In this document: in pieces, positions 7,516-63,224 of the stretch
How positions within the stretch are numbered: the first letter of the stretch is position 1
Layout of the letters: every line of letters begins with the position of its first letter
Notes under the pieces: generated by a model
Told to the model about the DNA's origin: nothing
The model's database searches: none
Seen by the model: the letters and a program-made list of their open reading frames with translations, nothing else
From: Hysterangium stoloniferum
Taxonomy: Eukaryota > Basidiomycota > Agaricomycetes > Hysterangiales > Hysterangiaceae
Assembly (NCBI GenBank): GCA_015178975.1
Contig: WHVD01000037.1
Location: 496,001 to 560,000, forward strand
Length of the DNA: 64,000 nucleotides
Reading direction: 5' to 3'
Program-made: the position numbers and the translations under genes

Positions 7516-9589
7516 ATGTCTGCTAAACCTCCAACAGGTCAGTATGAAAGCCCTTTATGATATATTGACCGATCCTTATGATATACAGTGCAATGTCCTG
7601 TCTGTAATGCTCTTGTCGTGGAGCTAGAAATAAATCGGCATTTGGATTCAGACTGCAAAATTGGCAGTACAGCCGCCTTCTCTTCCAAAAAGTCTCTGAC
7701 CTCAAGGAAAATGGATGACTTAAAGTCCATTGCGCCAATATTTAGCCAAAAGAAACGGCCAGTTGAACTATCTTCCAGTTCTTCCCAAATGCTTGCTGTT
7801 GCTAGTGATTCGGCACCAATGCAACTTTCAACTGCGCATGCTTCTAAACGACAGAAGACCAGCGCCATTAATACCAGCGCCATACCACTGGCAGAACGCC
7901 TTCGTCCCAAAGAATTTTCAGAGTTCATAGGACAGGAACATCTTATCGGACCTGATTCTCTCTTAGTGCATTTACTTCAAGGCATGAATGGATCCGCGGG
8001 CAGTATGATCCTATGGGGTCCTAGTGGTTGTGGAAAGACAACTTTGGCGCGATTATTAGCTAGGCAGACTAATGCCACTTTAAAGGAAGTTTCGGCGACG
8101 AGTTCGGGAGCGAATGAGGTCCGGAATTTGCTAGAGGAAGCTAAAGGAGTATTATCTCTAACGGGAAGGTGATTTTTGTCACCAGCTCCTTTTGACTATT
8201 GCACAATTGCCGCTTCGTACAGAAAAACCATCCTGTTCTTGGACGAGATTCACCGTTTTAACAAGGCCCAGCAGGTGAGTTCTTTCAATGCTTGATTTTC
8301 AGTCAGCTCACTCCACTGTCAGGACATTTTCCTACCATATGTCGAGCAAGGACATGTACAGGTACCTATGCTATGAGCTATGAACCAAGTTTGCCTAGCT
8401 TAGTTTGGATCAGTTAATAGGTGCGACAACAGAAAACCCGTCCTTCAAAATAAACTCTGCACTTCTCAGTCGATGCCGGTAAGTAACTCACCATTCAATG
8501 AAAAGACCCGTTTGAAGGTAGAGGAAGCGTTTTTGTGCTGGAGCGACTTACTAACGAGAATGTGATGGAAATACTTGATCGTGCAATCGAGAAGCTTGCT
8601 CCTCACCAACCTCCTGTAACTCCTTCGTCATCTCCACAAGAGATATTTGTGTCTTCAACTAGTTTTGCAGCTACTTCGTCGTTACCTCAACTCACACTCA
8701 AAGTCAAACGCTCTATAGCCTCCTTGAGCGATGGGGATGCTCGAACAGCACTATCGCTGCTTGAGCTCGTAGTCTCTTTGCCACCAATGGCTTCTGAGGA
8801 ATCTCTGCTCTCGAGCTTGCGACGCAGTGTCTCCACCCGGTATGACCGTACAGGAGACTCACATTATGACATGATTTCCGCGCTACATAAGTCAGTGCGT
8901 GGTAGCGATGGTAGCGCGGCATTATACTGGCTGGCGCGGATGATTACAGCTGGCGAAGATCCGCTCTATATAGCACGTCGTTTAATTGTCATGGCTAGCG
9001 AAGATATAGGTCTCGCTAATAACCATGCTTTACCTCTTGTAAGAGTTCACGCTGTCACTGTTACAGGAACAGTTTGCTAATGCAGACCAATAGGCGACTG
9101 CAACACTCATAGCGTGTCAAAATGTGGGCATGCCAGAGTGCCGCATCAATTTAGCACATTGTGTTGCATATCTAGCCGAATCACCGAAATCGACACGTTC
9201 ATATGAAGCGTATAATCGCGCAGAAGAGGCTGCAAAGGCGGAGACTACAGCACCTGTTCCTGTTCATCTGCGAAATGCGCCCACCAAATTAATGAAAGAC
9301 CTAGGATATGGGAGCGAATATGTTTATAATCCTTCATATGCGTAAGTGCCACTCACTGTATCGTTCGATATTTGATAAGTATAACAATTGGAAAAGACAT
9401 CCGGTGCAGCAGGAATATCTCCCGCCACACTTATATGGCAAAGAATTCTTAAAAAAGGAGGGTGATGTCGGTGACAAGGTTTGGGATGAAAAGATGCTGA
9501 GGCGATGGGAAAGAGAGTGCAATGATGATCAACCATGGAGTGGCAGGAGGGAGTTGAATACGTTACAGACTCTGGAACCTAGTCTTTGA
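7516..9589 (+). CDS. MGS1: Mgs1/WRNIP1 AAA+ ATPase (clamp-loader-like, DNA damage tolerance)
   Basis: Eight exons (7516-7537, 7589-8168, 8223-8274, 8323-8361, 8414-8478, 8528-9038, 9094-9341, 9397-9589) give 569 aa. An N-terminal UBZ-type zinc finger (CPVC..H..C, residues 10-30) binds ubiquitin in this family. Then come Walker A (GPSGCGKTT, near 151), Walker B (ILFLDEIHRF, near 205), sensor 1 (GATTENPSF), and the arginine-finger region (LLSRCRVFVL). The C-terminal MgsA tetramerisation domain follows (MASEDIGLAN to the conserved HPVQQEYLP). Mgs1 acts at stalled forks with ubiquitylated PCNA. The first exon is only 22 bp; it is the start that keeps frame with the zinc finger. All key residues are present. 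Confidence 0.95.
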
Positions 9590-30200: not shown

Positions 30201-31734
30201 GTGGGGGGATAAACAGCGACACTAGGATGTTCGCTTTCAACGGTTTTACTGAATGAGGTCCTATTGATATACGTCAGCAATTGCTTTGAAAGACTGATCG
30301 GCCCAGGTAGAGGATATTCGTGGATGTGCTGCGAGTTGGCTCTCTAGAGAATATTAAGCGGCTAACGCAAGCTATCAAATCAGCTCCAAGAGCGTACCTC
30401 CATAACTGCCTGTAAACCAGAAGACAAGTCAACAGGGAAACCCCAAATTTTGACATCTTCACCAGCTTCTTCAGGCTTGGGAACAACAACTGAGCACTTA
30501 GACCTGGTAAGTATTTCTTGGTTACCGGCGCCGACAAGAAGACGGTGTTGTCTCTTTGGCAGTTGGATAGACACGGATTGAAGACCAGTTTTCAGCTCTT
30601 CGATGGTGGCTTTGATGCGCTCAATGACACGACCAACAGCAGCGCGGTCTCCATTGACAACAATCTCCCTTTCCCTTTCAACCCAAGAGAGATGTACCTC
30701 CTCATCTTGTGCGACTGCTTCGAATTGACTTTTACGGGCCAGCACGAAGGGGATAAGATTCTGAGGTATATCCCGCACACGTTGGGTTGTCTTGGCGGTT
30801 TTCGTTGCAATGATAACGGAGATATGGCCACGAGCTTCTTCGGCAAGAGGAGCAGGTCCTTGAATAGTGATCGGAACCATAATGTCTTCTTCATCTCCAT
30901 CGGGCGTAGGGGTACTAGAGGCTGGTGTATGGCCGTTCAAACCGTTGGCCCCATTGATAGTAAACCCATCTTTACGCGGGATGTCGACCCTAACGCCAGT
31001 TTGGTCTCGAATCTGCTTCAAAATAGCGCCTAAGGCAGATGATGAAAATGGTATGCAGATAAAAGCAGAAACAATTGGTACCTTTAGGTCCGATGATAGC
31101 AGCAATTGTTGAACTAGGTGCATTGATGGTGAGAGTAACCTAAATGCTTAGGTGTATACATCAATTCAGCAAAAGTGAGTTGGCACGTACAACCGGGCTC
31201 AATGAAGAAACAAGCTGGCGCTTAGCCTTTTCCACTTCACGCTCGGATTCTCCTTTAACGAAGAATGTAGTTTGACCTGTTTTCCTCTGAGTTGAGGCCT
31301 CCACCTTGACCTTGAATTTTGCCATGGTGTTTTTCATTACATCACTCATGGTTCCCGCTTTGCCGTCTCTCCCAGCGCGCGACAAATTGACGGCACTTAG
31401 AGTGAACGACTCTGACATGAGCTTGTTCTTTGGGGCAGAAACCTTGATGCGAGGTCCAGTGGCGGCACCCCAAGCAGCAGCAGCAGGCCTGGGAGGAACG
31501 GAAGAGGCGAGGGATGGGAAAGCCACAGAAGAGTCTGTATCGAGGGCAGCCGGGGTACTAGTGCCACTTGAACGCTTGATCTTGGGCTCTTCCTTCCCAC
31601 CTAGAGATGGGAAAGGATCGGGAGCACCTTCCAACTCGTGTCTCCGCTAAAAAGACAAAAAAAAAGGTTAACGTTTCATGAGATGACGAAGCAGGTAAAA
31701 GTACCTGAAGATCAGCAGCAGAAAGAGTAGCCAT
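27286..31734 (-). CDS. SCP160: Scp160/vigilin multi-KH RNA-binding protein
   Basis: The start (ATG at 31734, MATLSAADLQ) is followed by a disordered segment with FPSL motifs. About eleven KH or KH-like units come next. Clear GxxG loops are GPKG, GRGG (twice), GAHG, GQNG, GKGG, GAGG and GTKG; others are degenerate (GAGN, SQQG, QGKS), as in yeast Scp160. The C-terminus ends AEARPRRY. The gene has many short introns; I checked the reading frame across most KH units but not every splice. Such proteins bind polysomal mRNA at the ER and affect translation and ploidy. It is convergent with the SR140 gene, with 226 bp between the stops. Confidence 0.9.
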
Positions 31735-32172: not shown

Positions 32173-35047
32173 ATGGATCTGAAAACTCGTCTGAAGAACA
32201 TAGCTTATTCTGCACTCTCCTTCACCGTTCCCGCCACAACTTGTCTCACTTTGTTATTCTATGCCGCCATCTTCATATCGTCCGTCGTGCAAGAAGAGCG
32301 TGTCCCTACACCTCCCCCACACTCTGATCAGCACGGTCTTGACTTACAGACTGCTCTACGCGACCTTCAAATAGTGAGTCTGGCGAAACGCCTCACACTA
32401 GTCCTAATATCTCTGTACCCGCCCAGATTGCCAGTGGACCCCATCCCTACAATTCTCATGCCAATGATGCTGTTCATTCTCACATCATCTCCCGCTTGAC
32501 CCAGGTTACTGGGCTTCACAATAACGTGCATATTGCGAATGATCTCCAGAGTAATGCGACTTGGTATTCTGGAAACGGCATATATTTTGAAGGAAATAAT
32601 GTCCTCGTTAAAATAGATGGCAGACAACCCGAACTAGATGCTGTCCTTTTCTCTGCTCACTTTGATTCAGTATCTACTGCACCTGGCGCGACTGATGACG
32701 GCATGGGTGTCGCGACGCTGCTACAACTTGTGGAATACTTTGCAAACAATACTCCTAGGCGTACGGTCGTCTTCAACATCAACAACGGTGAAGAGGATGG
32801 GTTACATGGCGCACATGCGTAATTATGATGCGTTCTTAGATATCGGATGATTGACAATCTCACATCATCTCTAGTTTCCTGGAGCATCCGTGGTCTTCAC
32901 TGCCGAAGACTTTTTTGAATCTCGAAGGCGCTGGTGCTGGCGGGTAGGCTGATATTCTTTAATTCATGTATTCAAGTGCTTAAATTGAACTGAAGGCGAG
33001 CGGTCCTCTTCCGGACATCGTCTACTAGCGTTACGAAGGCTTTCCGTGGCGTCCCACATCCTTTCGGCTCCGTTTTATCTGCTGACGGATTTTCTCTCGG
33101 TTTGATCAAGTCGGGCACGGATTATTCCGTTTATCAAGCTGGAGGCATGAGAGGTCTGGATCTAGCATTTTATAAGCGTAGGAGTCTATATCACACAAAC
33201 CGAGATTCCGTTCCCAGTCTTGAGGGGCCTAATCCTTTGTGGAACATGATGGAATCCGCTCTTTTTGCTGGTATCGCTCTGACTGAGGGCGACAGTTCAT
33301 CAGATGACAAAGGTTCTGCTGTGTACTTTGATCGTAAGTATCAGATCAAGTGGGTGTCGGTTTTGTTATATTGTGTTAACTGGCCTTGCTCAGTGTTCGG
33401 TGAAACGTTGGTTGTATTTTCATTGCGTACTGCTTTCATCATCAGCGTAGTTCTTCTTGTTGTCGGTCCATTGCTGGTGTCGGCCGGAATCGCCGCCGTC
33501 TACGTTCAAGGAAAACTTCACTGGTCTTTCAGAGGATGGCTCAGGTTCCCACTAACGATCGCAGTGGGACTGGGACTACTTCTCGGACTAGCCGCATTGT
33601 ACAATTACGTGAACCCAAATGTAAGATATTCCTGTTATGTTAGTTCACGCCTTTACTGAGTTTTTTTTTTTTCTGATGCAGATAGTGTATTCGTCCCATT
33701 ATACTGTTGCTATCTCCTTCATGGCGTTGGCTTTTGCTTCAGTCCACATTCCACTTTTAATTTTTTCCTCTTGGCATCCTGTTCCTCAACAGAAGTCAAT
33801 TATCTTGCTCGAGTCCTACATAATATGGTGGATACTTCTTGTCTACAATACAATCCTCATCAATCAGTACCAAATCGGGGGACTATATGTCATATTTTTC
33901 TTCCATATAAGCTATTTTCTCGCCCTTGTCGTTACCTTGGCAGAGCTCCTTCAGACCCCACCGACAGAGCACACACATTCTAGTAATATCCATCAACACA
34001 ACTCTCGCAACGGTGGTCAAATCAATGGTGATGACACCGAAACAACACCGCTTCTTCGCAGGCCAGAAAATTCGATCGAGCGTGACATCCAGGAAGGAGA
34101 GCACTTCGGGTTTTGGACAGCGGAATTTCTACTTCTGGTACCTTTCCCGGCTATCCTGGTGACTCAAATGGGCCTGATGTTGCTCGGAGCTCTTTCCCAA
34201 ACACTTGCTGATGGAAGCCCTGCGATAACCGGTAGATTTTTGGCAAATGAAATTTATATTCGTCTGACGGATTATTTTAGTATATGGAGCCATGGCGTTG
34301 CTAAGCTTCCTAATTGTGCTGCCCCTGTCGCCCTTCATTCACAAGTTGCACCGTTACGTTTCTGTGGGCTTCCTCAGTATCCTGATAATCACTGGTATAT
34401 ATTGCCTGGTCGCTTTCCCCTTCTCTCAGACATCTCCCTTGAAGGTCAAGTTTTCACAAGTGGTTGACCTTGACAATGGGTCGAATGTAGTTAACCTTGA
34501 CGGCCTCGCAGGTTATATGAAAGAAAGCATCGTCAGCAGCTTTCCGTCAACATGGAATCAGAAAGTAAATTGCACTGATGTGCCGGGCAGCCTACAACGT
34601 TGTCAATGGTCGGGACTGTCACCCTCGGTCGTCCCTCACAACTCCGAGGATTGGCTGTCCTTTAATGCCACTCTTGCGGGGCCGGGGGCAGCATTGATTA
34701 AAATTAAGGGGGAAAATACTCGGTCTTGTAGGATCTATTTTGATCATCCAGTCAACACTATTCGCATCGAAGACACAAGCGGGGAAGTACAAACAGACTA
34801 CCCTTTTCCTCGTGAAGGAATAAAGCGATTAAACCTTTGGAGCAGGAAATGGGGCAAAGAATTTGTGGTTACAGCCACCTGGAGCGGATCGCAGTCATTG
34901 TCTGGACGTGTGTCCTGTGGGTGGGCTGAGATCACGGAGGGGCGCATTCCGGCGTTTGCAGAGATTTTAGCATTTTTGCCCAATTGGGTAGGGGCCACCA
35001 AATCTAATGACGCATTAGTTGAGGCTTTTAAAGTCTTTTCTGTATAA
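32173..35047 (+). CDS. Vacuolar membrane protease, M28 family (Pff1-like)
   Basis: An N-terminal membrane span (TTCLTLLFYAAIFIS) is followed by an M28 metallopeptidase domain. Zinc-ligand motifs are AHFDSVSTAPGATDDG and the catalytic pair NNGEEDGLHGAHA; further ligand regions are LNLEGAGAG and the SGTDYSVY segment. The C-terminal half has about eight hydrophobic spans (for example ISVVLLVVGPLLVSAGI, IVLPLSPF) and a lumenal domain with DLDGLAGY, ending KVFSV. This matches the fungal vacuolar membrane protease family of about 900-1000 aa. The lumenal end has an N-glycan site (NCT). Two nearby methionines (32155, 32173) are possible starts. An intron near 34,270-34,330 changes frame. Confidence 0.92.
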
Positions 35048-50266: not shown

Positions 50267-52278
50267 ATGAGGACTGTAACACGAATTCCGCCTCGAGGGG
50301 GCGCCACGGGCGCTCCCCGCTGGCACCCCTACCATGCACCAAAGTCTACTCCTACCGCAACTACACAAACATGTGCTTCCCCGCCTTCTCCGATTATCAC
50401 CGCCCGGAGCAATTATCTCAATACCCCTGTATCAAGTCTCGTGTCGACATCTGACAGCTTCCGAAACACCCCAAGCAAACAAGCCAAGAGCTTCCAGAGC
50501 CCCGCCGCACATCATTATTTGAGCCACAAGGAACGTCACGACGCGAAGAAGGCCCAGAAGGAAAAATTCGAAAATGCGCTCAAAGGTATGTTTTTTTGCC
50601 GATTTGTGTGGCGGACTAGCGCTGGCGCTGTTGTTGTTGTGGGTGTTGCGGCTCAAGTCGCTCACAAAATTGAGATAGACAGGCCGTTTCAAGCCATCAT
50701 TAATGCGCCAGCATCTCCGACATGATCAATTGCCATCCTGATTCAAGCTAACGGTCACCTTTTGGTACAGAGCTCGCCGTTCAACGCATCGCAGACATAT
50801 GGAAAGAAACGTCTTATGTTATTCATTCAGGTGGTGGATCCACCCCTGTATCCAGCATGGATGAGGAGCCTTCTTCAAGGGCCTCAACAAGAGGCCAGCC
50901 TGCTGCATATCAACTCCCTTCTCCCTCTACGCCTTCTACCCAGACTTTTACTTCGCCGCCGTCTAATACAATGCACTTTAATGCACAATCGACCACCGCG
51001 CACCCTCCGCGAAGGATTCCACTGCGTGCCTTCGTCCATGAAGTCCTTCGACGCTCCAAAACCATGTGGCCCGCACTACAGATCGCATTATGTTATCTCG
51101 ATGCCGCCAAGTGCAAAGTTCCCACGGCGATTGCCGAGGCTCGACAGGGCGAGGGTCTACAAGCCGCTGAAGCCGCATTGGATAGCCTCTTTGGTTCCGC
51201 CAGTGCGAGTTCGATCAGTGAGGCTGTGAAGGCGGTTCCCCGTCCAGCTCAACAACCTCTGACACCAGAGTCCCATGTTGCCTCGCCAGGATCATCAAAA
51301 AATGATTCCGGATCTACCCAGCAGATGTTCTCTGGCGAAGCAATTGCTCCGGAAGACCACCCGGCCAGCATTCCCCATGCGCCTGCAGTCGCGCCTGTGG
51401 ATGCTCAAGGCCAAGGTGCCGGTGTTGCACCTCGGCGTCGCCGAACCCCGCCGGTTCCGGCGGAGCCACTTCCCCCGCGTCCCTCGCCACTTCTCTGCCC
51501 CAGACGTATGTTTGTTGCGGCTCTCATTCTCGCCACCAAGTTCACCCAGGACCGGGTGTACTCTAACCGGGCATGGGCCAAGATTTCGGGCCTCGACGCA
51601 CGAGAGGTATCTCGTTGCGAGCGAGCCTTAGGTGAGGCGCTGGAGTGGAGGTTATGGGTTGGAAAAGGGATTGCTGATGAGCCTACGGCATTCCTCCGCA
51701 ATTTCCTCCTCGCTGAGGAGAGTCTCGCTGCAAAGGGTAAGACGTCAGGGTTGGCTCGTTCGATGAGTGACGGCGCACTCTTAAACGATAATAATACGAC
51801 GAAGGATTTGAGTTCTGCCCTAAAACGATCGTCGTCTCTGAACAGTGCTGACCTCTTCAACACAAATAATAACATTTCGACACCTATGCTTAACGATCCG
51901 TCCACGTTGGTATTGACTCCTGCCAATGCGGATCTGGATGCGATGAATGTAGAACCAACACCCCCTCTGCACCATTCTTATTGCCCGTCGACGTCATCGT
52001 CGTCGTCGTCATACACGATGGATAGTACCCCGACTTGTTCCTTTACATCGAACGAATATTCCTTCACCCCAGCGACGAGAAATGGCATGCTGACGCCGCC
52101 GTTCTCACAATACTCGCCCAGTTTGCATGCTCTCGATTTTGGCGGCAAGCGAAATGTCATGTCATTTTCTAAGCTTGCACCGTCGTGGTCGGGACCATGT
52201 CCTGACCCGATTCTGAGATTTTCGCCTGGGGTAGAAGGGACGTTCGACATTATAGAAGGAATTGACCGACCGTTTTGA
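50267..52278 (+). CDS. Pho80/Pcl-type cyclin
   Basis: Two exons, 50267-50585 and 50771-52278 (184-bp intron, GT-AG, in frame), give 608 aa. The N-terminus is Pro/Thr-rich (MRTVTRIPPRGG..). A cyclin box is split by a long disordered insert. The first half has ELAVQRIADIWKETSYV, LRAFVHEVLRRSKTMWPALQIALCYLDAAK. The second half has CPRRMFVAALILATKFTQDRVYSNRAWAKISGL and ALEWRLWVG. These are marks of Pho85-partner cyclins. The C-terminal third is Ser/Thr-rich with many TP and SP sites, suggesting regulation by phosphorylation. Which Pcl subgroup it belongs to cannot be read from the sequence. Confidence 0.88.
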
Positions 52279-56418: not shown

Positions 56419-57056
56419 TGTGAGGATCGGCAGCGGGTATTCTGGGAGGTATTACTGTTTCTGTCGGATGGAAGAAAAGGGGGGTCGGTTCGAGAACCGA
56501 GGGGCTTTTAAAGGATGGAGGAGGAGGAGAATGAGGACGAAAAAAAGGAAAAACGGAGACAAAAAAAAAAGGCAGGGAGAAGTAACCACGGATCAGTGGA
56601 AACTCCGTTAGACGTTTCCCAGATTCGGAAATGGATATATTGGCTGGTGTGGGAAAACATTGGGAATTGAGATTAATTATTTTGGCCAGAATCGGGCGAA
56701 ATGTGCCTTGGTGATGAATCGTGATAAATTAGGTTTAGACTCTGTTTAGACTCATGGGCCAGCGCCCTCCTGCTATTCTCGAGTCTTCCCCCCCTGGCGT
56801 CATCATTTTTACGTCTTCAAATCCATCTCTTTTATTTTATTTTCTCACACTTGTCCAACCACCACTTCTTCCACCATTCTTCGGAAATTCCGCTGCCCTC
56901 CCATCAGAATGTCCATATACTTAGTCTGCGAATATTTTTTTCGTTTCTCGTGAACCAAGCTCTGATGTCGAGTCCTAATCTCGATCCACATCCTTCAGCC
57001 TCTTATGTAGATCCCTTTCTAGATCCTTGTCTACGCCACGCCACATCCCATATCTC
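56419..57056. promoter_or_regulatory. Upstream region of the Zn2Cys6 gene
   Basis: No gene. Purine-rich near 56510-56590 and pyrimidine-rich at 56780-56960 on the plus strand. It probably contains the promoter of the minus-strand regulator. Confidence 0.4.
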
Positions 57057-57170
57057 CGCTGTAGCATCCACTGTAGCATCCACCGTAGCGTCCACGTAGC
57101 GTCCACCGTAGCGTCCACGTAGCGTCCACGTAGCGTCCACCGTAGCGTCCACCGTAGCGTCCATATTCCA
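57057..57170 (+). repeat. Tandem repeat of a 10-12-bp unit, about 10 copies
   Basis: The unit gtagcgtccac(c) is repeated head to tail with small length changes and a few single-base variants. It is non-coding in context. Confidence 0.9.
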
Positions 57171-60400: not shown

Positions 60401-61047
60401 TCATGTGACAGGTAGCTTTTTAACGTTGCAGATGTTGACTTTGCCAAAAGCTGGACTTGCCAATCGGGCAGTGGCGTCTTGCAGGGTCTAGTTGGCAACC
60501 GATGGCAGGTCTGTCCTAAGAAGGCTAATGGCAGCGGTAGTTTATCGCAAGCACGCCTGATCGAAGACCTCCCTGCGCTATAAATATGCACGTGCATCTT
60601 TCCATCAGTGAGTGGTCTGTTCCGAATGGTGTGATTGGCGGTTCGCCTCGCAATTCTAATGTACGTTAATATACCCCCGCTCTCCTGCTCGCTGCAAAGC
60701 GTCGCTCGCAGCACATAGCCCTCCACGCAGATTAAGACAGCACTTTGGCAATTGCTGGCACGCAAACCAGTCTTCTGAGCACCGATTTGCAATGAGAATA
60801 CTGCGGCTCTTCACATGTGTGATTGGTAGCGGATAGCTATGCATGCTGTGTCCCCTTGTACCTTGTATTTACACTGAGGTCTGTTTCCCTTTGTCCTGTA
60901 CAGTTGCACTATACGCTCCGTCTTGGGTCTGCTTACCCTTGTTTTTTAAACCATACTGCACTCCAGCGTTGTTCTCGGCCTCTTCCCGTCGTCTTATATA
61001 GCAATAGTACACTCTTGCTGCCCTTGTATCTACCTATTATTTTGAGC
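57470..61047. other. Long region with no supported gene
   Basis: Frames are short, overlap in several frames and lack signatures. Homopolymer runs are frequent (a 10-base C run near 58949; G6A14 near 59105; a TG repeat at 59592-59610). This is probably old, unrecognised repeat or intergenic sequence plus the promoter of the kinase gene. Confidence 0.45.
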
Positions 61048-63224
61048 ATGTCGCTCCGAGCCACCTACAGCACCTCGACATCTCTGCTTAGTGCGACTCT
61101 CAACAGTGCTTACTTCGTTGCCCAGTTTACACCTATCCCTGCCCTCCAGCCGGCTCTCGGGGCAGTCATAGGGATCATTGACATATGTCAGCAGATAGTG
61201 TCTAATAGGTACTGTTGAGCACGTCAGTTGTCCGACCAAACTTTCCTCTGACAACTTACTGTTCATAAGAAAGGAGGCTCTTCAGTTACAAGAGCGATGC
61301 AAGCATCTAATTTTGGCCCTAAATGATCCATCCTATCAGGCCCGGGAGGGGAGCAATTTTGCACGAATTGTGGAGGGATCCACCGCGTGAGTCGTGCGTT
61401 CAGTGATTGTTTCCCAGTGCTAGACTGTCGGCGACACACAGCCACCTCCAAGAGGTGTTAAGGGTGATCTCTAGCTATGCCGATCTCTCACGATGGAACC
61501 AGGTCCTGCGCCATGCAAAACTATCCGAGGATATTGTGCGATGTCACCAGAAGCTCGACGCCTGCTGCACAGAATTCCAGGTGGGCTCCTGTCCTAGCAT
61601 ACCACGCGCCTCCGGCTGACCAGAAATGTCGATGCACAGATACGGTGCAATATGCAGCTGCTCCAGTGGTATGTCTGCTTCTCGCTGTGTAAAAAAATGT
61701 ATGTTTACCCAGTGCCTAATGTGCAGGCAGAACGAAAATGAAACGTCCCGGAAAGAGGACCAGGTAGAGGTGCTCCAGGCCCTGAAAGAGCTGGGTGAAG
61801 GACAGACCCAGCTCAGGGAGATGTTGAGCGACCTCAGCAGTACGAATCAAAGCCAAATATCTTCCCTGATGCAAATAATACAGGATTTCTTGGCAAAGGT
61901 GTGGCATTTTTGTGCAGCGTAGTCTGTGCTTTTTTTTTCACCGCGAAAATAATGCCTGCAGGCGGTATCGAATAGGTCTAGCACGGATGCCCAAGAGGAT
62001 TCCCAGGTTTATAGCGAGTTGGAACGGAGCCTCCACGCTGTGCAGAGAGGCTCAGGCCGTCTTCCTCCTGCGATTGCCCTGGAGGCGAAAGAGGGGCGGC
62101 GTGTTGGAAGCCACCCTGTCGGGGGCAATGCAGCGTTCGACATTTGGGAAGGCGTGTGGCTGAAGCGGGAAAAGGTCGCGCTGAAGACGATTCGGAGCAT
62201 TGACGTCTCCCCCGACACCATAAATGTGAGCATTCCTAGTCACATCCAGTGCGGCTCCTGTATCGACGACGACGGCTTCCAGCGATTTACGCGTCAAGCC
62301 GAGATCTGGAAGAAAATATGGGAACGGGACCAGGGGCACTATATCGTGCCGTTTTACGGGGTGGGCTATGATGATGGTCCCTATCCGTAAGCCATCTTCA
62401 AAGACTCGCGGAGGCCTCCGTCGCGATTTATCAGCTCGATAGGTACATCGTCAGCCCGTGGATGAACAACGGGACTGTGAACGAATACCTGGCAAAGTAT
62501 CCTCGCGTCAACAGGCGAGATATTGTATGGGCACGAGTTGCTTTATTGAATTGAATCTTATGTTTCTGCGACAGATCAAAGGCATCGCCGAGGGGCTGCG
62601 CCTGCTCCATAATCTCCAGCCAAACGCAGTAGCACATGGGGATATCAGAGGGGTATGTCTTTTTATCCTCGCCAGCCATGCAATATCAACAACCAACGTC
62701 GAAATACTTAGGCCAATATTATGATCAATGATATTGGACAGCCAATGCTAGCTGACTTTGGATTGTCAAAGGTGTGGGTTCCACGTTAGAGTTTGCTAGG
62801 TTGCCACTCATTCGTATACGCCAGATTCTGGAAGACGTGACAGGCGTTCCGTTTACGCAGAGCAAAGGCGTCTCTGAATCATTCAGGTGGTTCGCACCAG
62901 AAATGTGCCAGTCGCCTGGGATTATATCTACCCACACGGACGTGTTCGCATTCGCGATGACTATTATTGAGGTATCATAGCTTATTTGGGACGTCACGAC
63001 CGTTTTCTTACCGACACGCTGCGATTTAGATCTATACGGGATCGCCTCCGTATGACCATATCAGAATGCCTACCGAAGTCCTGATAAAGATGCCGGGCGG
63101 TGAAAGACCCAAGAGACCATCGGGCAGCGCCTTCAGTGATAATATGTGGAAGGTGACGACCGCGTGTTGGGCGCACAAATTAGAAGAAAGGCCGAAAATC
63201 GACTGGGTCCTTGAAAACATTTGA
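61048..63224 (+). CDS. Protein kinase with MLKL-like N-terminal helical domain
   Basis: Twelve exons give 523 aa in frame: 61048-61208, 61270-61386, 61418-61580, 61640-61668, 61727-61898, 61962-62225, 62283-62386, 62443-62524, 62575-62652, 62712-62771, 62825-62971, 63030-63224. The first 150 residues begin with a region like the fungal MLKL-N four-helix domain (FTPIPALQPALGAVIGIIDICQQI) and continue as helices. A coiled-coil-like linker follows (QVEVLQALKELGEGQTQLREML). The kinase has VALKTI (beta-3 Lys), HGDIRGAN in place of HRD-KxxN, ADFGLSK, and FRWFAPEM. HGD instead of HRD is usual in these fungal kinases. The catalytic residues K, D, N and DFG are kept. In animals MLKL carries this combination to permeabilise membranes in necroptosis; a similar role here is inference. 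Confidence 0.82.

Follow-up and report, generated by a model that had tools for sequence, protein, structure and literature searches.

A Hysterangium stoloniferum gene that probably joins an MLKL-like N-terminal region to a TK-like kinase with an unusual ATP site

Does a gene near the end of the analyzed 64,000-nucleotide stretch of Hysterangium stoloniferum contig WHVD01000037.1 (here called the window) encode a cell death protein that carries its own kinase? An earlier note, made from the letters of the sequence, had proposed that an MLKL/HeLo-like helical region is fused here to a complete kinase and that the protein may be an undescribed incompatibility or immunity factor. The extent that it gave for the gene proved exact: the ATG is at 61048, the TGA is at 63222-63224 (+ strand), and the spliced translation between them yields one open frame of 515 aa from 12 exons, which are separated by 11 GT-AG introns of 50 to 63 nt each. 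A chance reading frame is ruled out by the 12 same-frame exons, the GT-AG introns, and the match to Pfam kinase models. The protein consists of a helical N-terminal region (residues 1 to ~150), a linker (~150-255), and a kinase domain (~256-513). The peptide quoted in the earlier note corresponds to residues 24-48, within exon 1. The parts of the gene are as follows (hG, h1 to h4, and hM are helices of MLKL-like domains).

61048..63224, + strand: whole gene, 12 exons, 515 aa (spliced translation; introns all GT-AG)
61048..61208, + strand: exon 1, residues 1-53, candidate hG and h1 (AlphaFold2 single-sequence model)
61270..61386, + strand: exon 2, residues 54-92, putative h2 region (covered by the sub-threshold MLKL_N match, which spans residues 43-140)
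61442..61580, + strand: exon 3, residues 93-139, candidate h3, hM, and h4 (AlphaFold2 single-sequence model of residues 94-139)
61640..61898, + strand: exons 4-5, residues 140-206, polar linker (no Pfam family above its cut-off in residues 1-206)
61962..62225, + strand: exon 6, end of the linker and kinase N-lobe, with the glycine loop V259-G-G-N-A-A-F265 and K281
62283..62386, + strand: exon 7, kinase helix C, where Gln299 replaces the Glu
62443..63224, + strand: exons 8-12, remainder of the kinase, with HGDIRGAN (377-384), DFG (397-399), APE (426-428), GERP (475-478), and CW (497-498)

The linker encoded by exons 4-5 occupies a position comparable to that of the brace in MLKL and in the wheat protein Pm13. 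Intron 6 (62226-62282) is 57 nt long and free of stop codons; its removal was therefore deduced from the kinase alignment. Retention of this intron could insert 19 residues ahead of helix C. Gln299 lies downstream of the intron and hence is unaffected by read-through.

The C-terminal half is a protein kinase. Residues 266-513 matched the Pfam model PK_Tyr_Ser-Thr (E = 4.4e-32), the Pkinase model matched as well (E = 5.6e-26), and the closest PDB sequences (among the best 60 of 312 matches) were Src-family kinases, with Lck at E = 5.5e-24 (4.5e-24 for a trimmed query). The lineage can be narrowed by motifs. In its account of the FslK kinases, PMC3937382 describes a fungi-specific, TK-related lineage that is expanded in Agaricomycetes, lacks AARN, lacks the first Pro of XP(I/V)(K/R)W, and has a P in the GxR(L/M) motif. 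The gene product displays all of these motif features (i.e., DIRGAN, ESFRWFAPE, and GERP) and thus fits that description; the likeness covers the GxRP motif, the missing P before FRW, the missing AARN, and PK_Tyr_Ser-Thr as the best Pfam model. It differs in its N terminus, since additional domains are rare in the FslK set as tallied in PMC3937382 (16 of 241 members), whereas an MLKL-like N-terminal domain (NTD) is likely here. Assignment of the kinase to the FslK/TK-like lineage fits its motif sequence.

According to general kinase knowledge of the roles of ATP-site positions, an active protein kinase carries a beta3 Lys, a helix-C Glu, a GxGxxG loop, a catalytic Asp, an Asn, a DFG, and an APE. 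Alignment to Lck and to kinase relatives from the same genome showed that five of these seven elements are kept (K281 in VALK, D379 in HGD, N384, DFG 397-399, and APE 426-428) and that the helix-C Glu and the second Gly of the loop are replaced. The Glu position was assigned to Gln299 (codon CAA) because FLAEANLM of Lck aligns over FTRQAEIW, and Asn262 stands in place of the second loop Gly. The relatives came from a search of the whole genome assembly (111,116,353 bases in 554 contigs; the gene is on contig C301), in which the kinase gave 73 matches, including seven to the gene itself; among the rest, the top three were 30, 42, and 40% identical, and 20 stretches carrying such matches were examined further. 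At the position of N262, all eight relatives whose tblastn matches cover the glycine loop have Gly. At the position of F265, where the third Gly would stand, Gly is present in just one of the eight, so that only N262 counts as a change in the loop. Residue 299 was covered by 10 tblastn matches, of which six have Glu (L039, L052, L054, L055, L057, and L058), and the other four have Ala (L042), Tyr (L045 and L046), or Gln (L051). In L045, L046, and L051, this letter adjoins in-frame stops, as it would in an unspliced intron, and WREYLAW or WREYLVW follows slightly downstream; L042 has KREIITW shortly after the position. We therefore read the non-Glu letters in these four translations as probable read-through introns rather than genuine substitutions. 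A base error may lie behind the CAA codon of the gene itself.

Because of Gln299 and Asn262, "intact," the word that the earlier note had used of the catalytic residues, is too strong for this kinase, and its activity is uncertain; the presence of K281, D379, N384, and DFG was correctly seen. For the same reason, the kinase may be weak or may work chiefly by switching its conformation and not through strong catalysis. Animal MLKL, a pseudokinase, is without the catalytic Asp and the DFG. In the present protein, D379, N384, and DFG 397-399 are present, and the helix-C Glu and the glycine loop are altered. Retention of the Asp, Asn, and DFG together with loss of the Glu and the second loop Gly is also the basis of a reading that we consider improbable, namely, that the protein is an intermediate between enzyme and pseudokinase whose kinase half would mainly bind nucleotide and in this way switch an MLKL-like killer domain. 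If true, it would represent a convergence with animal MLKL and a test of how an active kinase becomes a death switch. TK-like kinase matches in this genome are clustered on contigs C509, C2, and C526. Their abundance, like that of the NACHT matches and the shortness of the introns, suits a mushroom-forming fungus.

The character of the N-terminal region was approached through profiles. When this region was isolated, Pfam MLKL_N (PF22215) was the top match out of 24,736 models in each of three cuts (E = 0.0019, 0.0017, and 0.0029 for residues 1-152, 23-142, and 1-139, respectively), and for the cut 1-152 the match placed residues 43-140 on profile positions 11-110. The scores (18.1, 18.3, and 17.6 bits, respectively) are below the curated cut-off of 27 bits. 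The match became visible only once the region had been cut out; Pfam scans of the full protein and of residues 1-206 reported no MLKL-type family at E values up to 10. The runner-up family for the cuts was DSHCT (E = 0.08 to 0.11). Shuffled versions of the region gave MLKL_N in 0 of 10 cases, and the best shuffle match to any family had an E value of 0.037. The HeLo-like model PigL_N (PF17111) gave no match in the Pfam scans of the protein. Thus, of the MLKL/HeLo-like character proposed for the N terminus, the MLKL part is favored by the ranking and by the shuffles, its ~18 bits falling short of the 27-bit cut-off; the HeLo-like part was not recovered. Searches of the genome with PigL_N and Goodbye (PF17109) gave no matches either; these negatives say little because the control genomes were likewise silent, indicating a weak search.

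Direct comparisons were less telling. A search of the genome with MLKL_N at an E value of 5 returned a single match, L001 (C104:54410), which scores above the curated cut-off (27.6 and 31.4 bits). The N-terminal region is collinear with L001 (residues 30-140 on 28-136; BLAST E = 0.12), and since 81 of 1,000 shuffles scored as high, this match alone is not significant. An hhalign comparison of two-row profiles (with L001/L060) was not significant either (probability, 0.7%), with a near-identical register over residues 95-138. MLKL did not appear when residues 1-206 or 23-142 were searched against PDB sequences. The best match was a taurine dioxygenase (E = 0.01 and 0.0017, respectively). The fold of that enzyme is a different one from the MLKL-like domain, and we judged the match to be due to chance; because its E value is as small as that of MLKL_N, E values of this size are not strong. 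A PDB search with the L001/L060 profile gave a tape-measure protein as the best match (E = 0.17). On the basis of the profile matches, homology of the N-terminal region to MLKL_N is likely, and we regard its membership in the MLKL_NTD superfamily as quite probable.

Exons 1 and 3 were modeled separately with AlphaFold2 in single-sequence mode, with no alignment. Exon 1 yielded helices at residues 3-27 and 30-52 (mean pLDDT, 78.6), and exon 3 (residues 94-139) yielded helices at ~95-106, 109-115, and 122-138 (mean pLDDT, 63.4). Among 19-residue segments of the protein, hydrophobicity peaks at 29-47 (Kyte-Doolittle mean, 1.56). PMC9815663 describes the core of basidiomycete MLKL-like domains as four helices, to which a further helix at the N-terminal end (hG) and a short one separating h3 from h4 (hM) are added. 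The modeled order fits this arrangement: exon 1 would supply hG and h1, exon 3 would supply h3, hM, and h4, and h2 would fall in exon 2. By analogy, the region may pack into a four-helix bundle. In HET-S, a hydrophobic helix is located at the free N terminus, whereas in the present protein a modeled helix of ~25 residues precedes the hydrophobic one, which consequently is not at the free N terminus.

How does this layout compare with systems already in print? The basidiomycete MLKL-like set (BaMLKL; CDD MLKL_NTD) resembles the gene product in the helical N terminus, in the order hG, h1 ... h3, hM, h4 of the single-exon models, and in the sub-threshold match, which the clustering described in PMC9815663 also reports for some clusters; it differs in being drawn from NLR N termini, whereas here the region is fused to a kinase and membership is below the curated cut-off. 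The legend of a figure in a 2025 review (PMC12881547) states that some fungal HELL domains occur in proteins with kinase or pseudokinase domains; since this legend gives no member names or sequences, our comparison with them is by description. Wheat Pm13, in the account of PMC10951266, consists of an MLKL_NTD, a brace, and a kinase with all key residues, and its loss-of-resistance mutations map to all three parts alike. The order NTD-brace-kinase is shared, but the kinase of Pm13 belongs to a plant RLK subfamily, while that of the fungal protein is FslK/TK-like and has Gln299. Animal MLKL shares the (probable) four-helix-type NTD, the brace, and the kinase-like domain, and it differs in being a pseudokinase (as summarized in PMC12881547), whereas the present protein keeps the catalytic Asp, Asn, and DFG and has an extra N-terminal helix. 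Judged by titles and abstract openings, the open-licence PMC papers listed in the literature searches included no characterization of a fungal member of this fusion. Nevertheless, the description of the architecture as "undescribed" fails, given the fungal form in the legend of PMC12881547 and the NTD with an intact-looking kinase in PMC10951266. With the architecture in print for both fungi and plants, the gene looks like one further member, and it is probable that it represents one more case of an MLKL-like NTD joined to a kinase, with an unusual ATP site.

The explanation that we prefer, with a probability of roughly 0.45, is that of an MLKL-architecture protein in which the kinase half acts as restraint and switch for a helical domain that, once released, oligomerizes at a membrane. 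Its parts would be a basidiomycete MLKL-like domain (hG plus four core helices), followed by a linker or brace and by an FslK/TK-like kinase. At rest, the N-terminal domain would be held in check by the kinase half. A signal from upstream, such as phosphorylation or the binding of a ligand or partner at the kinase or brace, would shift the conformation of the kinase; the protein would then oligomerize, and the helical domain would move to the membrane, where it would perturb the membrane or signal death or defense. We infer autoinhibition, oligomerization, membrane action, and any role in death or immunity. A cell death role is plausible by analogy, and our confidence in a death function as such is a little short of even. 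The explanation draws support from the gene model, the kinase match, the MLKL_N top match, the helix order, the collinearity with L001, the domain order of Pm13, and the fungal fusions mentioned in the legend of PMC12881547. Counted against it are the ~18-bit MLKL_N score, the weak L001 match, the lack of MLKL in the PDB search, the nonterminal hydrophobic helix, the codon-position identities with the partial copy (see below), and the lack of a NACHT partner on contig C301 among the at least 38 NACHT matches listed in the genome. If the N-terminal region kills under the control of the kinase, fungi would have a counterpart of the RIPK3-MLKL step within a single protein. The gene would then offer a practicable way to compare fungal necroptosis-like death with its animal and plant forms, which the 2025 review (PMC12881547) names as a task ahead. 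At present, the gene is one added member, with an unusual ATP site, of an architecture noted for fungi and plants.

The main rival to this MLKL-type switch, which is possible but clearly less likely, is that the MLKL-like fold serves as an adaptor or oligomerization module that clusters or docks the kinase, the output being phosphorylation and not membrane damage. This would suit the retention of K281, D379, N384, and DFG, as well as the extra helix before h1 in basidiomycete MLKL-like domains, whose N-terminally extended forms PMC9815663 leaves open as to their likeness to HeLo-like function. The authors of the Pm13 study (PMC10951266) likewise are undecided whether its NTD kills or perceives. 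However, Gln299 and Asn262 speak against a fully standard kinase, and the known relatives of the domain work at membranes in several kingdoms, as surveyed in PMC12881547 and PMC10197012.

A second rival, which we consider improbable, is that the helices of the N-terminal region are unrelated to MLKL and form an extension private to this gene, which would otherwise be one more FslK-type kinase. No Pfam family exceeds its cut-off there, helices are commonplace, and the chance dioxygenase match reached an equal E value. The kinase relatives provide a further point in its favor: no similar N terminus was seen upstream of nine of them, whose translations were read by eye. When the full protein was compared with the 20 stretches that carry relatives (tblastn; E up to 5), residues 1-150 were touched once, over 20 residues (E = 4.8; L051). 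Upstream of two relatives (L045 on C509 and L040 on C537), the translations contain TPR-like repeats, judged by eye. No relatives were found in viral contigs. Against an unrelated stretch, MLKL_N was specifically the best family, well ahead of DSHCT, and appeared in none of the 10 shuffles, and the modeled helix order fits an MLKL-like domain.

Within the genome, the N-terminal region (residues 1-206) gave six matches, four of which are the gene itself and two of which lie on contig C13; thus, one gene and one decayed copy were found. The copy (L008:3779-4449) matches window positions 60896-61190 and 61346-61711 with DNA identities of 90.6% and 89.4%, respectively. It is missing residues 48-76, has a non-GT donor at exon 4, and continues into retroelement-like sequence (judged by eye); these three features rule it out as a functional short form. 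Intron 1 is also absent from the copy. We read it, from its sequence, as a decayed partial duplicate of the 5' part of the gene. The two sequences are identical at 111 of 120, 110 of 120, and 107 of 119 sites at codon positions 1, 2, and 3, respectively; among noncoding sites, the 5' flank has 143 of 158 identities, and introns 2, 3, and 4 have 46 of 55, 53 of 59, and 31 of 47. The similar identities at the three codon positions give no positive sign of protein-level constraint. That the gene itself is losing function, as an orphaned, relaxed copy in which kinase decay has begun, is very improbable. This reading would suit the changes at two usually conserved ATP-site positions and the decayed state of the sole other N-terminal copy found. 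Against it, the reading frame is open throughout the 12 exons, every intron has GT-AG borders, and the remaining kinase motifs are retained.

Some further observations concern L001 and the window. L001:1348-3330 and L060:1369-3732 (C104:15810) are 68% identical over their N-terminal 246 residues, with no introns in the stretches examined; L060 was recognized by similarity, and the Pfam scan covered L001. Both start with an MLKL_N-type N terminus, continue with a Cys/His-containing stretch (by eye), and end in a long C-terminal region, which in L001 gave no Pfam match at E values up to 1. To judge from these layouts, the pair is another MLKL_N fusion, whose partner is not a kinase. The window contains 49 open frames of at least 140 aa, of which 10 were scanned with Pfam: four belong to ordinary families, and six gave no match at an E value of 0.01. 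The ordinary-gene exons encode an MgsA-type AAA ATPase (8502-9074, +), a KH domain (30386-31147, -), a vacuolar membrane protease transmembrane domain (33625-34461, +), and a cyclin (50752-52272, +). Between 41898 and 45852 (-), long open frames occur in a run that, read by eye, looks like a retroelement; for two of them, Pfam had no match at an E value of 0.01. At 57049-57163, there is a minisatellite-like array with an 11- to 12-nt unit around GTAGCGTCCAC.
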